NCBI GenBank assembly: GCA_009668945.1
Contig: SBEH01000006.1
Location: 1-64,000 of the forward strand
DNA: 64,000 nucleotides
Source of the DNA: Actinomycetota bacterium
GTDB lineage: Bacteria > Actinomycetota > Coriobacteriia > Anaerosomatales > Anaerosomataceae
Reading direction: 5' to 3'
Under the pieces are notes generated by a model. That model searched no databases. It was not told the DNA's origin and worked only from the letters and a program-made list of their open reading frames with translations. This document shows, piece by piece, positions 44,159 through 52,881 of the stretch (its first letter is position 1; each line of letters opens with the position of its first letter). The translations under genes were made by a program, and so were the position numbers.

Positions 44159-45868
44159 GTGGAGCAGCCGCTCATCCTCGACAGGTACCGGCCGCTGACC
44201 GACCTCGGGTCCGGGGGTCACGGCTCGGTCGTGTTGGCCTTCGACACGAAGATGGCTCGACGCGTGGCCATCAAGCGCCTGCCGCTGCCGCGGGACCGTC
44301 GCGGCCTGCCCACTGCGCCCGCCGGTCTTGCCGAAGCACGCACGGCGGCGCTGCTGAACCATCCGAACATCGTCACCGTGCACGAGTGGGACACGGACGC
44401 CGACGAGGCGTTCATCGTCATGGAGGCGCTCGACGGCGCGTCCGTCGCCGACCTGCTCGACGAGACCGGGGAGCCCTTCACGCCCGATGAGGCGGCGGCG
44501 ATCGTCGCGGGGGTGTCCGCGGCACTGACCTTCGCGCACGACAACGGCGTGTTGCACCTCGACCTCAAGCCCGCCAACGTCCTTCTCACCCGCGACGGCC
44601 GCGTGAAAGTCGCGGACTTCGGCGTCTCGGCTCTCACCGACGTTTCCGGACGCGCGAGTGCAACCGCAGGTACGGTCGGATACATGCCGCCGGAGCAGAT
44701 CCGCGGCCAGCAGCTCGACGAGAGCACGGATGTCTGGGCGCTGGGTGCACTCGTCTACGAGGTGCTCGCGAACGCGAACCCCTTCGATGCCGATTCGGCT
44801 GAAGGCTCGCTGTTCAAGATCGAGGTCGCCGAGGTTCCAGCACCCTCCGAGTTCGAGCCGTCGGTCGGCCCCGCGGTTGACGACATCGTCCTCCGGGCGC
44901 TCGCTCCCGCTCCGTTCGAGCGGTACGCGACGGTCGCCGAGTTCGCGCGCGCGCTGCTGCCGACCCTCGGAGATCCGGAGGCCGGACGCCGATCGCTTGC
45001 CGGGCTCGTCGAAAGCTACGCAGCCGAAGAGGAGCCGGCGGCATTCGCACCGCTCGGCCTGTGGGACCGCCTCGCGCCGCACGCCACGCTCGCCCGCCAC
45101 GCGGCCGCCACCCTCGCCTGCGCCTGGCTCGCGTGGTCCGGCTCCGGCGCGCTGCCGCTCGGACCCGCGGCCCGCCTCGTCACCACCGCGCTCGTCGCCG
45201 TCGCGGGCGCGTTCGCGCCCGCCCTCGGCGCTGCGCTCGGGTACGCGGCGTTCGCGCTCGGGGCAGGGTTCGCGTTCGGCTGGCCTGTCGGCGCCATCGT
45301 CGGCGTGCTGCTGGCGGCCTTCTGGCTCGCGCTCGGGCGCCGTGGCACCGCCGACGGCTACGCGCCGGTCTTCGCACCCGCCCTCGGAATCGTGCACGCA
45401 GCGCCTGCGTCGCCACTGCTGCTGGGCTTCGTCTTCGAGCCGCTGCCCGCCGCACTCGCCTCGGGCGTGGCGGCGCTCGCCGCCGCCGCCGCATCCGCGC
45501 TCACCGGGCGCGGCGCGCCGTTGCTCTCGGTCGGCTGGCGGTTCGTCGCCGCGCCCTACACCGTGACCGCGGCTGCCACATCGCCGCTCGAGAGGCTGGG
45601 CCAGCCGGGTACCGGCATCGCGGTCCTCGCGTGGATGGCGGCCGGTGCGGCGTGCTCGCTCTTGAGTCGCCGCGCGACGCGCGCAAGCGCGTTCGCGGGC
45701 ATCGCTGCGGGCGCGGTAGCGCTCGCGTTCGGGTACGTCGGCTGGCGCTGGCTTGCCGGGCCGGACTCCATCAGCGTCGAGAGCCTCGCCCTCGATCTCA
45801 CCCTCGGCAGCGGCTTGGCACTTGTCGTCGCCGCACTCGGCGCGCCGACTCGTTCAGAGGAGGAGTAG
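44159..45868 (+). CDS. Ser/Thr protein kinase with HLD motif and polytopic C-terminus
   Basis: 569 residues. The kinase domain (about 10-270) has the glycine loop GSGGHGSVV, VAIK lysine, DFG and an APE-like PPEQ. The catalytic loop reads HLDLKPAN (133-140), so the usual HRD arginine is replaced by Leu. An activation-loop Arg-binding pocket is thus absent and control may differ from PknB. Residues about 290-569 contain roughly eight hydrophobic helices instead of PASTA repeats, possibly a membrane sensor or transporter-like module. GTG 44159, 3 bases after slyD. Confidence 0.9.
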   Translation: MEQPLILDRYRPLTDLGSGGHGSVVLAFDTKMARRVAIKRLPLPRDRRGLPTAPAGLAEARTAALLNHPNIVTVHEWDTDADEAFIVMEALDGASVADLLDETGEPFTPDEAAAIVAGVSAALTFAHDNGVLHLDLKPANVLLTRDGRVKVADFGVSALTDVSGRASATAGTVGYMPPEQIRGQQLDESTDVWALGALVYEVLANANPFDADSAEGSLFKIEVAEVPAPSEFEPSVGPAVDDIVLRALAPAPFERYATVAEFARALLPTLGDPEAGRRSLAGLVESYAAEEEPAAFAPLGLWDRLAPHATLARHAAATLACAWLAWSGSGALPLGPAARLVTTALVAVAGAFAPALGAALGYAAFALGAGFAFGWPVGAIVGVLLAAFWLALGRRGTADGYAPVFAPALGIVHAAPASPLLLGFVFEPLPAALASGVAALAAAAASALTGRGAPLLSVGWRFVAAPYTVTAAATSPLERLGQPGTGIAVLAWMAAGAACSLLSRRATRASAFAGIAAGAVALAFGYVGWRWLAGPDSISVESLALDLTLGSGLALVVAALGAPTRSEEE

Positions 45869-45982
45869 CCGCGAGACGCCGGTCCGGGCATTCAACGGGC
45901 CGCTGACGTGCCCGCAGACGGTGCACACCCCCTGCTATCATTAGGAGTCCGCAGACCGCCGCCGACACCATTGCGCAGGCAG

Positions 45983-46696
45983 ATGGGCATTCTCTCCGAC
46001 TTCGAAGATCGCATCGCCTCGGGCATCGAGGGCCTCTTCGCCGGTGCCTTCCGTTCGCCGGTGCAGCCGGTCGAGATCGCCAGGGCACTCACGCGCGCCG
46101 CCGATGATGGACGCGTGCTGGGCGTCGGCAGCGTCTACTGCCCCACCTCGTACACGGTCGCCCTCTCGGCGGAAGACGACGGGGAACTCGGCGCGTTCAA
46201 GACCGTGCTCGCGGGAGAACTCGCCACCTACCTGGCCGACCACGCGCGCGAGCAGAACTACCACCTCCCATTGCGACCCCAGGTCACCTTCGTCGTACAC
46301 GACGACCTCAGGCTCGGGCGGTTTCGGGTGAGCGCTGCGCTCGCCGAGCCCGAACCCGAAGACAGTGGTCCTGCGGTGCGCTTGCCCGATGCGCCGAAGG
46401 GTCCGAGCGGTCTGGCAACCGTTACCGTCGGGGACATCGCTCATGACGTTGCGCTTCAGGGAGACGAGGTCCTCGTCGGCCGGCTCGTCGAGTGCCAGGT
46501 GCGCCTGACCGACGCGAACGTCTCGCGTCGCCACGCGGCGTTCATCCGGCTTGACGACGGCTGGGCGATCAGCGACCTCGGCTCGACGAACGGCACGCGG
46601 GTCAACGGCAAGTCGATAGAGCACGCGAAACTCAGCGACGGGGACGTCGTGGAAATCGGCCTCACGAGACTCGTCTATCACTCTCCGGGGAGCTGA
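45983..46696 (+). CDS. fhaA: FHA-domain protein FhaA (DUF3662 N-terminus)
   Basis: 237 residues. The N-terminal DUF3662 region (about 1-125, MGILSDFEDRIASGIEGLF) and C-terminal FHA domain (about 145-232) with VGRLVECQVRLTDANVSRRHA and DLGSTNGTRVNG match mycobacterial FhaA. The FHA domain binds phosphothreonine made by PknA/B-type kinases. FhaA in Mycobacterium recruits MviN. Two bases separate it from fhaB. Start ATG 45983 within the 114-base gap after the kinase. Confidence 0.94.
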   Translation: MGILSDFEDRIASGIEGLFAGAFRSPVQPVEIARALTRAADDGRVLGVGSVYCPTSYTVALSAEDDGELGAFKTVLAGELATYLADHAREQNYHLPLRPQVTFVVHDDLRLGRFRVSAALAEPEPEDSGPAVRLPDAPKGPSGLATVTVGDIAHDVALQGDEVLVGRLVECQVRLTDANVSRRHAAFIRLDDGWAISDLGSTNGTRVNGKSIEHAKLSDGDVVEIGLTRLVYHSPGS

Positions 46697-46698
46697 CG

Positions 46699-47118
46699 AT
46701 GGCAGACGTGGCGCTGCTGTTCGGACGCATCGTCTTGATAGCGCTGCTCTACCTCTTCCTCTTCGCGGCGGTGAAGACCGGCATGGGCATGGTAGTCGGG
46801 GCCGGGCGAAAGGCGTCGCAGCGGATGCTGGCCTTGCGCGTCGTGCGAGGGCCAAAGGAGATCACGGGGGTCTCCGTGCCACTCACCGGGCCCGTCATCA
46901 TCGGCCGCTCGCCCGGCGCCGACCTCGTGATCGCCGATGACTTCGTCTCGTCGACGCACGCCAAGGTCGTGCCCGCGGGTGACGGCCACATGCTCGAAGA
47001 CCTCGGGTCCACCAACGGCACGCTCGTCAACGGCCAGCCTGCTACCCGGCCGCTCCCGGTGGTTGCGGGCGACGTGATAGAGCTCGGCCAGAACCGCCTC
47101 GAGGTGGTGCGCCTGTGA
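46699..47118 (+). CDS. fhaB: FHA-domain protein FhaB (FipA-like)
   Basis: 139 residues. One N-terminal membrane helix (about 5-33) then a basic linker and an FHA domain (about 50-135) with IIGRSPGADLVIADDFVSSTHAKV and DLGSTNGTLVNG. Mycobacterial FhaB/FipA links the kinase system to FtsZ/FtsQ. Overlaps the phosphatase gene by 4 bases. Confidence 0.93.
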   Translation: MADVALLFGRIVLIALLYLFLFAAVKTGMGMVVGAGRKASQRMLALRVVRGPKEITGVSVPLTGPVIIGRSPGADLVIADDFVSSTHAKVVPAGDGHMLEDLGSTNGTLVNGQPATRPLPVVAGDVIELGQNRLEVVRL

Positions 47119-48194
47119 GCGCGCGCCACGATGAGACGTTCGCGGGCGACAGCCACGTCGGGCTGGTGCGCACCGACAACGAAGACGCGTTCCTCGTAGC
47201 GCCGCCGCTGTTCGCCGTGGCCGACGGCCTCGGGGGACATCAGGCTGGCGAGATCGCGAGTTCCGCCGCGATAGACACGTTGCTCGAGGAGGCGCCCCGC
47301 GTTGCAGACTGCAAGGCGCTCGGAAGGGCCGTGCGGCGTGCGAATGCCGCGGTCATCGAGGCAGCCGAAGTCGGACGCGGCAGGGCGGGCATGGGCACCA
47401 CTCTGACCGCCGCGATGATCGACGGAAGCCGGATCGCGGTCGCACACGTCGGCGACAGCCGTGCGTACCTGCTCCACCTCGGCGAACTCGAGCAGCTCTC
47501 ACAGGACCACTCGATGGTCGCCGACCTCGTACGACAGGGGCAGATCACCGTCGAGGAGTCACGCAGTCACCCGAACCGCAGCGTTATCACGCGCGCGCTG
47601 GGCTCCGACCCGAACATGCTCGTCGACACCTTCGAGGTCGAGGCCGCACAGGGCGACCGCCTGCTGCTTTGCACCGACGGGCTTACGAGCATGGTGTCCG
47701 ACGCCGAGATCGCACGCGTGCTCGGTTCGGCAGCAAGCGCTCAGACTGCCGTCGACACCCTCGTAGACATGGCCCTTGCAGCCGGTGGACACGACAACGT
47801 CACCGCGGTGGTCGTCGACATCGGCCGCGCCCCGCGCCGTCAGCCACAGCCCGCGGGTACGCCCGGCTGGACTCTGCGACTGCTGTGGGTCCTCGCGGCG
47901 ATCCTGATCGTGGCCGGGGCGGCGTGGGCGGCGAACTCGTACGCGCGCTCGCGGGCGTACCTGATCGCCGAGAACGGGCTCATCAGCGTCTACCAGGGCG
48001 TACCCGGGTCACTCGCAGGAGTGCGCCTGGCGTGGCTCTCCGAGGAGACGACCGTCGCCGTGTCGTCTCTCGATGTGGTCACCGCCAACCGGCTTGCGGA
48101 GGGAATCAGGGCGGACGGGCTGACGGAGGCGCGCGCCCTGCTCGAAGTCTACCGGTACCGTGCGGCCGAGGCTTCCGCGACGGTAGCACCCTAG
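47115..48194 (+). CDS. pstP: PP2C-type Ser/Thr phosphatase PstP
   Basis: 359 residues. PP2C core (about 8-240) with metal Asp in RTDNEDAF and VADGLGGH, plus HVGDSRAYLL, CTDGLTSMV and GGHDNVTAVVV. One membrane helix (about 257-278) and a small extracellular domain (80 residues) follow. It removes phosphates placed by the nearby kinases and their FHA/PBP substrates. The GTG start overlaps fhaB by 4 bases; the RodA-PbpA gene follows after 9 bases. Confidence 0.94.
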   Translation: MSARHDETFAGDSHVGLVRTDNEDAFLVAPPLFAVADGLGGHQAGEIASSAAIDTLLEEAPRVADCKALGRAVRRANAAVIEAAEVGRGRAGMGTTLTAAMIDGSRIAVAHVGDSRAYLLHLGELEQLSQDHSMVADLVRQGQITVEESRSHPNRSVITRALGSDPNMLVDTFEVEAAQGDRLLLCTDGLTSMVSDAEIARVLGSAASAQTAVDTLVDMALAAGGHDNVTAVVVDIGRAPRRQPQPAGTPGWTLRLLWVLAAILIVAGAAWAANSYARSRAYLIAENGLISVYQGVPGSLAGVRLAWLSEETTVAVSSLDVVTANRLAEGIRADGLTEARALLEVYRYRAAEASATVAP

Positions 48195-48203
48195 GGGGCT
48201 TGC

Positions 48204-50945
48204 GTGCGCACCCGTCGGGACAACGAACTCCTCCTGCTCTTGGCCGCATCCCCGGTCGTGGTCCTGCTCTTCGTGCTGGTTCACGGCGCGCAAGCACGCA
48301 CCCTGGGGTGGTCTGACATCGTCATCCCCGTCGGGCTGTTCGCGTGCTTCCTTGGCGCGCACGTCGCCGCCCGGTTCCTTGCCCGCGGCGCGGATCCCGC
48401 GCTGCTCCCACTGACCTTCCTGCTCTCGGGTATCGGTCTGGCGGTCATCACGCGATTGGACAGCGAGCTCGCGGCCAGCCAGGTGCTGTGGGTACTCGCG
48501 GGCGTCGTCGCCCTGATCGCGATCCTCGCTGCGGTACCGTCCATAGAACGGCTGGGGCGGTTCAAGTACACGATCGCGCTCGCGGGCATCGTCTTGCTCG
48601 TGCTGCCGGCGCTGATCGGCGTGGAGGTCAACGGCGCGAAGCTGTGGCTCCGCTTCGCCGGCTTCTCGTTCCAGCCTGCCGAGATCGCCAAGATCCTCAT
48701 CGTTCTCTTTCTCGCCGCATACCTCGCCGAGAAGCGCGAGGTACTGTCGGTCGCCACCAAGCGCACTCTCGGTGTCTGGATGCCCCCCGCGAAGCATCTC
48801 GGACCGCTGCTCTTCATGTGGGCAATCAGCCTCGTGGTCCTGATCGCCGAGAAGGACCTCGGCTCGAGCCTGCTCTTCTTCGGCGTGTTCCTGGTCGTCC
48901 TCTACGCCGCTACAGGACGCCCGGCGTACGTCTTCGTCGGACTCGGGCTGTTCGCGATCGGCGCCGCTGGAGCATACGCGACGTTCGGCCACATCCAGTC
49001 GCGCATCGCTATCTGGCTCGACCCGTTCGCCGACGTCGCAGGCCGGGGCTACCAGCTTGCACAGTCGCTCTTCGCCCTGGCGGCCGGCCGAGTTCTCGGA
49101 GTGGGGATCGGCAACGGGCTTCCCGGACGCATCCCGTTCGTCGAGACGGACTTCATCTTCACGGCGGTCGCCGAAGAGCTCGGCTTGCTCGGCGGCGCGG
49201 CGCTCATTGTCACGTACCTCGTGTTCTGCCTGCGCGGACTAGCCACCGCTTCGCGAGCCCGCTCGGACGTCGCCGCGCTAGCAGCCACCGGCCTTGTGGC
49301 GACCTTCGGCCTCCAGGCGTTCGTCATCATCGGCGGCGTCACGCGCCTCATCCCCCTCACCGGCATCACGCTGCCATTCGTGAGCTACGGCGGAAGCTCC
49401 ATCGTCTCGAACTTCGTGCTGCTCGGGCTGCTGATGCGCGCCGGAGACACCGGGACAGGAAGCGAGACTGAGATCCTGGTGAGCGGAGGAACCGGCCTGC
49501 TGGGCCGCATCGCGCTCACGCGCCGGCTTGCGCGAGTCGGCTGGCTCGTCGTCGCACTCATGACGGCGCTCGTGGCGAACCTCACGTACGTGCAAGCCGT
49601 CGCCGCGGATGAGCTCACCGCCAATCCGGCGAACACACGCGGGCTGACGGCCGAGATGCGCCAAGAGCGCGGGGCTATCATCTCGGCCGACGGCGTGGTT
49701 CTCGCGGAGTCGGTGAAGAGCGGCGATGTCTACGCGCGCCGATATCCGGACGGTACGACAGCCGCCCATGTCGTCGGATACTACAGCGCCAGGTACGGCC
49801 GCGCAGGCGTAGAAGCGGCCGCCAACCAAGCGCTCGCCGGCAAGAGCGACTTCTCCACGTTCGCCGACATGATCGAGGCTGCTGCGGGCGTGCCTGTAGC
49901 CGGAAACGACGTCCGGTTGACGATCGACACGCGCGTTCAGCGGGCTGCCGCGACCGCACTCACCGGCAACCGCGGCGCGGTCGTGGTGCTCGACCCTCGA
50001 ACGGGCGCCGTTCTGGCCATGGCGTCCAGCCCCGCCTACGACCCCGGGACTATCGACGCCCAGTGGCCGTCACTCTCAGCTGACGGAGCAAACGCCGCGC
50101 TGGTGAACAGGGCTGCGACCAGCCTGTACCCGCCCGGATCGACGTTCAAGGTGGTCACTCTGACTGCCGCGCTGAAGTCTGGAGTAGCCAGCGAGGGTAC
50201 GACCTATGCCGGTCCCGCGAGCATCGAGATCGGCGGCGCCCCCGTGACGAACTACGGCGGCGATTCGTATGGCGAGATCGACTTGCGCAAGGCGACCGCG
50301 AGCTCAGTCAACACCGTCTTCGGACAACTGGCGCGCGACCTCGGCGCCGAGGCGCTCGTCGCGCAGAGCGAGGAGTTCGGCATCAACTCGGCGGTGCCGT
50401 TCGACCTGCCGTCGGTCACGTCGCTCATGCCCGACCCGCGGGAGATGACGGTGTGGGAGACTGCGTGGGCAGGCGTCGGACAGCCGGTCGGCGAGCACCA
50501 GAGCCCGCCCGGACCGCAGGTCACCCCGCTGCAGATGGCGCTCATCGCCTCCGGCATCGCCAACGACGGAGTCGTGATGCGCCCGTACGTCATCGGCGCG
50601 GTGAGCGACCGCGCCGGACAGGTCATGAGTTCCACCACACCGCGCGAGTGGAAGACCGCGCTCGACGCACAGACCGCCGACAGGGTCACGGACATCATGG
50701 TCGGTGTGATCACGAGCGGGTCCGGGACGCGCGCCCAGATCCCCGGCGTCACGGTAGCGGGGAAGACAGGTACGGCTGAGGCCGGGAAGTCGGTCGAGAC
50801 GCACGCTTGGTTCATCGCATTCGCGCCTGCCGAGGAACCGAGAGTCGCCATGGCGATCGTGTTGGAGAACGCCGGGGTGGGCGGACGCGTCGCCGCACCT
50901 GCGGCGAAAGGCGTGCTCGAAGCGGCCCTGCAAGCGACCCGGTAG
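48204..50945 (+). CDS. RodA-PbpA fusion: SEDS glycosyltransferase joined to class B PBP
   Basis: 913 residues in one frame. Residues about 1-415 are a SEDS polymerase with about 12 helices: VETDFIFTAVAEELG (catalytic-site Asp) and LPFVSYGGSS. A basic loop (RIALTRRLARVG, about 433-445), a further helix (447-467) and a transpeptidase follow, with S646-T-F-K649, S701-V-N703 and K854-T-G856 all intact. With 12 helices the SEDS C-terminus is inside, so the extra helix delivers the PBP domain outside, as required. In Mycobacterium these are two genes, rodA and pbpA. Polymerises and cross-links elongation peptidoglycan. GTG 48204. Confidence 0.95.
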   Translation: MRTRRDNELLLLLAASPVVVLLFVLVHGAQARTLGWSDIVIPVGLFACFLGAHVAARFLARGADPALLPLTFLLSGIGLAVITRLDSELAASQVLWVLAGVVALIAILAAVPSIERLGRFKYTIALAGIVLLVLPALIGVEVNGAKLWLRFAGFSFQPAEIAKILIVLFLAAYLAEKREVLSVATKRTLGVWMPPAKHLGPLLFMWAISLVVLIAEKDLGSSLLFFGVFLVVLYAATGRPAYVFVGLGLFAIGAAGAYATFGHIQSRIAIWLDPFADVAGRGYQLAQSLFALAAGRVLGVGIGNGLPGRIPFVETDFIFTAVAEELGLLGGAALIVTYLVFCLRGLATASRARSDVAALAATGLVATFGLQAFVIIGGVTRLIPLTGITLPFVSYGGSSIVSNFVLLGLLMRAGDTGTGSETEILVSGGTGLLGRIALTRRLARVGWLVVALMTALVANLTYVQAVAADELTANPANTRGLTAEMRQERGAIISADGVVLAESVKSGDVYARRYPDGTTAAHVVGYYSARYGRAGVEAAANQALAGKSDFSTFADMIEAAAGVPVAGNDVRLTIDTRVQRAAATALTGNRGAVVVLDPRTGAVLAMASSPAYDPGTIDAQWPSLSADGANAALVNRAATSLYPPGSTFKVVTLTAALKSGVASEGTTYAGPASIEIGGAPVTNYGGDSYGEIDLRKATASSVNTVFGQLARDLGAEALVAQSEEFGINSAVPFDLPSVTSLMPDPREMTVWETAWAGVGQPVGEHQSPPGPQVTPLQMALIASGIANDGVVMRPYVIGAVSDRAGQVMSSTTPREWKTALDAQTADRVTDIMVGVITSGSGTRAQIPGVTVAGKTGTAEAGKSVETHAWFIAFAPAEEPRVAMAIVLENAGVGGRVAAPAAKGVLEAALQATR

Positions 50946-51045: not shown

Positions 51046-52881
<1,836 letters not shown>

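Follow-up and report, generated by a model that had tools for sequence, protein, structure and literature searches.

The locus and the fused gene

The window, by which we mean the whole stretch of DNA analysed here, is 64,000 nucleotides long and comes from a genome of the class Coriobacteriia. SEDS polymerases partner class B PBPs, and the pairs have been studied as two-chain complexes or as engineered fusions. In the window both partners are encoded by one gene, a single frame of 913 codons that runs from GTG to TAG with 0 internal stops (Table 1). This reading of the frame and the Pfam domains found in it confirm the 913-residue RodA-PbpA fusion claimed by the initial annotation. Its location between pstP and pknB holds up as well, since profile matches identify pstP upstream and pknB downstream. 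Nearly every actinobacterial locus that is complete has the order PstP-[SEDS-PBP]-PknB, whether the two middle parts are fused or split. A scan of the operon for promoters and terminators gave hits no more numerous than in shuffled sequences. Open frames of about 1290 codons suggested a still larger PstP-SEDS-PBP fusion, which we reject because no frame has both PstP and SEDS matches.

Table 1. Features of the fused gene and its operon in the window.
Feature	Position	Strand	Evidence
Ser/Thr kinase without PASTA (PknA position)	44159..45868	+	Pfam, NCBIfam
FhaA-type protein (FhaA_N + FHA)	45908..46696	+	Pfam
FhaB-type FHA protein	46699..47118	+	Pfam, NCBIfam
PstP-type PP2C Ser/Thr phosphatase	47115..48194	+	NCBIfam Stp1 equivalog, above cut-off
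SEDS-PBP fusion gene, 913 aa	48204..50945	+	Open frame, Pfam, alignment, model
SEDS glycosyltransferase part, residues 1-413	48204..49442	+	Pfam PF01098 87-413; model helices; FtsW/RodA structure matches
Codon of D316, equivalent to catalytic Asp262 of E. coli RodA	49149..49151	+	Alignment to 8tj3_B; invariant
GDxxTG anchor at linker start, residues 414-419 (GDTGTG here)	49443..49460	+	75/77 in-class fusions
Cytoplasmic linker, TM12 to PBP helix	49443..49490	+	Model: disorder 418-430
13th membrane helix, residues 430-466, from cytoplasmic linker to exported PBP	49491..49601	+	Model, mostly pLDDT >90
LGRxxLxxRL anchor, residues 433-442, cytoplasmic start of PBP helix	49500..49529	+	75/77 in-class fusions
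PbpA dimerisation/pedestal domain PBP_dimer_2, residues 489-570	49668..49913	+	Pfam
Transpeptidase domain, residues 591-905	49974..50918	+	Pfam; fold similar to 4mnr and M. tuberculosis PbpA 3un7/3upp
SxxK motif S646-K649 (S646-T-F-K649)	50139..50150	+	Sequence, homologue alignment
SxN motif S701-N703 (S701-V-N703)	50304..50312	+	Sequence, homologue alignment
KTG motif K854-G856 (K854-T-G856)	50763..50771	+	Sequence, homologue alignment
PknB-type PASTA kinase	51046..52881	+	Above equivalog cut-off

Three Pfam domains are found in the fusion, all beyond their family thresholds: FTSW_RODA_SPOVE (E 2.9e-73), PBP_dimer_2 (5.1e-21) and Transpeptidase (1.6e-61). The SEDS domain scores 247 bits against a cut-off of 26.4 and has the catalytic Asp (D316) expected in periplasmic loop 4, which makes it a member of the family. 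The PBP half is a class B PBP of the PbpA type, with the SxxK/SxN/KTG fold, PBP_dimer_2 and one N-terminal TM helix, and without GT51. The three transpeptidase motifs named by the initial annotation are all present, and their key residues (S646, K649, S701, N703, K854, T855 and G856) are invariant in an alignment of 32 homologues. So are D316, W148, Q157, E160 and D218 of the SEDS part, which alignment to 8tj3_B equates with Asp262, Trp102, Gln111, Glu114 and Asp159 of E. coli RodA. Asp262 has a catalytic role in the E. coli enzyme (PMC10449877).

An AlphaFold model built on a 32-row alignment (pLDDT 88.9, pTM 0.79) gives the SEDS part 12 helices long enough to span the membrane, followed by disorder at 418-430, one long helix and the PBP ectodomain. 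The 12 predicted helices correspond to the 10-helix RodA core plus 2 extra at the N-terminus. Because the count is even, the C-terminus of the SEDS part is predicted to return to the cytoplasm, and the 13th helix would carry the PBP out. The model thus bears out the topology first proposed for this protein, a 12-helix SEDS domain with one more helix placing the PBP outside. The modelled PBP half resembles the Eggerthella lenta structure 4mnr (TM 0.95 of target) and also M. tuberculosis PbpA.

The fusion is fixed in the Coriobacteriia

Far from being confined to this genome, the fusion is the fixed ancestral state of the class as a whole. All 200 genomes drawn from the class match it. The match is uninterrupted across the join in about 100 of them; in families with long linkers it comes in two pieces, yet there is one frame of at least 938 codons in each case listed. 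Frame by frame reading of 77 distinct in-class sequences found the fused single frame in every one. The set includes Collinsella, Eggerthella, Atopobium, many MAGs and single-contig genomes, and among its named records are Collinsella aerofaciens, Atopobium deltae, Candidatus Olsenella stercoravium, Candidatus Coprousia avicola and several Coriobacteriia MAGs. These fusions come from many sequencing projects and diverge to about 48% identity. The initial annotation had proposed checking the join (49440-49620) for a sequencing error and comparing the protein with close relatives. All in-class relatives read have a homologous join that keeps the frame, the nearest of them being 84% identical overall, and the comparison turned up no split pair in the class.

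Loss of the fusion was considered for some in-class genomes. We searched again 13 of those that gave no full hit and found no split rodA/pbpA pair. G064, G092, G100, G116 and G142 have fragments of the fusion on contig ends or small contigs, and the others have paralogues only. On these 13 genomes we reject loss.

Two other genomes deserve mention. The complete single-contig genome G031 (L057) has a frameshift past the equivalent of residue 769, with the KTG-bearing remainder of the PBP in another frame; this is either a sequencing error or a pseudogene. The MAG G090 has lost about 78 residues in frame within the last SEDS helices (L058:3549-6215). Given these two cases the fusion is perhaps not indispensable everywhere, and it may be dispensable in some members of the class.

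The linker and its two anchors

Among the 77 distinct in-class fusions, 47 to 106 residues separate SEDS helix 12 (residue 413) from the conserved end of the PBP helix. The variable part is bracketed by GDxxTG, directly after helix 12, and by LGRxxLxxRL at the base of the PBP helix. The longest linkers belong to the Coriobacteriales (Collinsella and Atopobiaceae; L040-L043, L113, L116, L118, L126 and L131), which have 80-106 residues of variable sequence between the same anchors. No comparable GDxxTG tail was found on the separate RodAs of the loci read. Separate PbpAs start with a sequence like MNKRIRRL instead of LGRxxLxxRL, and the latter anchor is characteristic of the fusions.

Some of the linker may be inherited. 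Separate RodA tails in L103, L078 and L091 end in ...T(A/G/E)EILIGGR, which resembles ...ETEILVSGG in the linker of the window, so part of the linker may have descended from the C-terminal tail of RodA.

The Thr of GDxxTG, judged from its conservation, is a possible phosphorylation site. A bolder reading takes the anchors as a putative docking or phosphorylation site for the kinases or FHA proteins of the operon, through which PknB signalling would switch the coupled synthase class-wide. The same reading would make the linker a regulated hinge built on the anchors, a mechanism absent from two-chain RodA/PbpA. We regard this joint proposal as unlikely.

Origins of the fusions

Outside the class, the survey covered 397 genomes drawn from the phylum. 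In the out-of-class loci read, rodA and pbpA are adjacent and in the same order but occupy two frames, with one exception. In many of these split loci the ends of the two genes touch or overlap, as in L093 (CTCATGAATAAACGC, where the pbpA start lies over the rodA stop) and L091 (TGATG). The fusion probably arose when the ancestor of the Coriobacteriia lost the rodA stop, together with a small shift of frame wherever the two frames were different.

Whether built from the SEDS part, from the PBP part or jointly from the two, the trees unite the in-class fusions in one clade (support 100). These are quick trees, rooted with this genome's own RodA and PBP2 as outgroups, and they have some long branches, to which the in-class clade is not close. 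The fused and split states require three changes on them. A single common origin for all fusions is rejected (AU p 3e-50). The trees give one fusion event for the class, and independent ones in the Chloroflexota and in one other actinobacterial lineage.

The other actinobacterial case is G471, of family f65, which has an independent RodA-PbpA frame (L089:3123-6419) with an unrelated linker (SAPPPAHAPVRGRG...); its closest relatives are split. In the Chloroflexota, L152, L175 and L188 (including Anaerolineaceae UBA6107) carry independent single-frame SEDS-PBP fusions with linkers of 32-35 aa. FhaA/FhaB-like genes lie upstream of these fusions, and no PASTA kinase was found downstream of the three. 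Long SEDS frames hinted at fusions in the G247 family too, which we reject, since the extra length is upstream open frame and PbpA lies in another frame. The best matches of 121 genomes in an actinobacterial family that we judge to be Mycobacteriaceae, with long upstream frames excluded, contain no fusion.

A third synthase

Which RodA is this? We count three SEDS and six transpeptidase genes in the genome, and the fusion sits outside its mre and dcw clusters. A complete mreB-mreC-mreD-PBP2-rodA cluster lies elsewhere, its RodA and PBP2 both above their equivalog cut-offs. In the dcw cluster are mraY, a class B PBP and an FtsW candidate, which lies close to mraY on contig 7 and scores slightly below the cut-off. 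Neither half of the fusion reaches the corresponding equivalogs: the SEDS half scores 210.5 vs 336.7 for RodA (TIGR02210) and 237.9 vs 337.5 for FtsW (TIGR02614), and the PBP half 302.7 vs 455 for PBP2 (TIGR03423). Since the halves fall below these cut-offs, the case for orthology rests on synteny, PBP_dimer_2, the trees and similarity to PbpA. The PBP half matches M. tuberculosis PbpA at 3.6e-62, against 1.8e-39 for the best MrdA, and the nearest kin on the trees are the RodA and PbpA of the operon rather than the MreB-linked RodA and PBP2. The label RodA given by the initial annotation is therefore right in the sense of the actinobacterial PknB-operon RodA and wrong in the sense of the MreB-linked RodA, for which there is a separate mre cluster.

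Three SEDS genes are present in nearly all in-class genomes of good completeness. Because this holds class-wide, and because unfused MreBCD-PBP2-RodA and dcw PBP/FtsW sets are present, the fusion adds to the usual synthases. It is a third synthase beside the elongation and division sets and replaces neither.

One chain or two

We believe the gene encodes a single-chain peptidoglycan synthase in which the PknB-operon RodA and PbpA of actinobacteria have been joined, and we give this reading a probability of roughly 0.88. A very different explanation would be that two neighbouring genes have been misread as one frame through a sequencing or assembly error. Where out-of-class ends touch or overlap, one lost stop or indel would indeed be enough to join them. 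However, the 77 in-class sequences from many projects, single-contig genomes among them, are all fused with the linker aligned and the anchors kept, and the E. lenta half known from its crystal structure aligns at 100% identity with a portion of a fused frame. An error of this kind is practically out of the question. Only slightly less far-fetched is the idea that the fusion has replaced the RodA-PBP2 of the Rod complex and become the elongasome synthase of the lineage. The domain types are the same as those of RodA and a class B PBP, but the intact mre cluster, the three SEDS genes of nearly every good in-class genome and the scores under the RodA and PBP2 cut-offs make this very improbable.

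The alternative we take most seriously accepts the single frame but has it yield two proteins, by cleavage of the linker or by an internal PbpA start, so that the product is an ordinary two-chain pair. The linker is disordered in the model and variable in length, and in a few relatives it has a start codon preceded by a purine-rich stretch. Such a start codon with a ribosome-binding site is not conserved among in-class linkers, though, and the linker of the window has none. The linker is also predicted to be cytoplasmic, which would put it beyond the reach of signal peptidase, and both anchors are kept, as expected if the join is maintained. We consider a two-protein outcome improbable.

How would a single-chain synthase work? 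By homology, the SEDS half would polymerise lipid II, and D316 would act as the catalytic base. From the cytoplasmic C-terminus of this half the chain would lead through the linker to the PBP's own membrane helix. That helix would pack on the SEDS bundle as in two-chain RodA-PBP2 and hold the transpeptidase outside, where it could crosslink the strand made beside it. Joining the halves would fix their stoichiometry at 1:1 and would block mispairing with the FtsW-FtsI and the Rod-complex RodA-PBP2 of the same cell. Because the gene sits in the PknA/PknB/PstP/FHA operon, the fusion is probably the synthase under control of PknA/PknB, PstP and the two FHA proteins, as in mycobacteria.

A pair that nature has fixed in a single chain would serve biochemistry and cryo-EM as a ready-made 1:1 synthase, one half of which has its structure from E. 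lenta already. The presence of this chain across a class is a natural experiment on the importance of stoichiometry and pairing. The fusion is also a clean molecular marker of the Coriobacteriia, and in common gut bacteria (Collinsella and Eggerthella) it puts the PknB-operon synthase in one beta-lactam-binding protein.

Comparison with known systems

The initial annotation guessed that such fusions had been noted elsewhere, and this was a good guess. PMC10449877 mentions examples of a SEDS and a PBP encoded in a single ORF, with reference to the Rhodococcus RHA1 genome, and one half of such a fusion is in the PDB as 4mnr. We found no description of the Coriobacteriia fusion in the literature searched, which covers the relevant papers in part. 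Single-ORF fusions as such are already known; class-wide fixation and the linker anchors are the new points, along with the finding that the host retains its unfused elongation and division sets beside the fusion. The structure 4mnr, a D,D-transpeptidase of E. lenta, aligns over 449 residues and at 100% identity with positions 476-924 of a class member's fused frame (L072), and 4jbf matches the PBP half of in-class fused proteins at up to 68%. These and the other structures titled peptidoglycan glycosyltransferase from E. lenta and Atopobium parvulum (4n1x, 4r1g and others) hold the transpeptidase half only, and going by the entry titles the fusion was apparently not their subject.

The closest counterpart is the pstP-rodA-pbpA-pknA-pknB operon of Mycobacterium, Corynebacterium and most actinobacteria, a linkage kept throughout the Actinobacteria (PMC6554272). 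It has the same domains in the same order, FhaA, FhaB and PstP upstream and the PASTA kinase downstream. Mycobacteria transcribe pstP together with rodA and pbpA, and their PknB has PbpA among its substrates (PMC6554272, PMC3989709). The PBP half of the fusion resembles the M. tuberculosis PbpA structures 3lo7, 3un7 and 3upp. The difference is that the RodA and PbpA of this operon are two proteins, whereas the Coriobacteriia have one chain with a linker and its anchors. The fusions of the Chloroflexota and G471 also run SEDS then PBP in one chain, but they are of independent origin and have other linkers without the anchors of the class.

The RodA-PBP2 (6pl5, 8tj3) and FtsW-FtsI (8bh1, 8p1u) complexes have catalytic residues, half-by-half homology and the order of membrane elements in common with the fusion. 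They consist of separate chains with a 10-helix SEDS protein, in contrast to the covalent link and 12 SEDS helices found here. When RodA and PBP2 of E. coli were fused by engineering, the product showed lipid II polymerisation and bocillin binding and gave a cryo-EM structure, and the PBP2 helix stimulates RodA (PMC10449877). The natural fusion has its parts in the same order as the engineered one.
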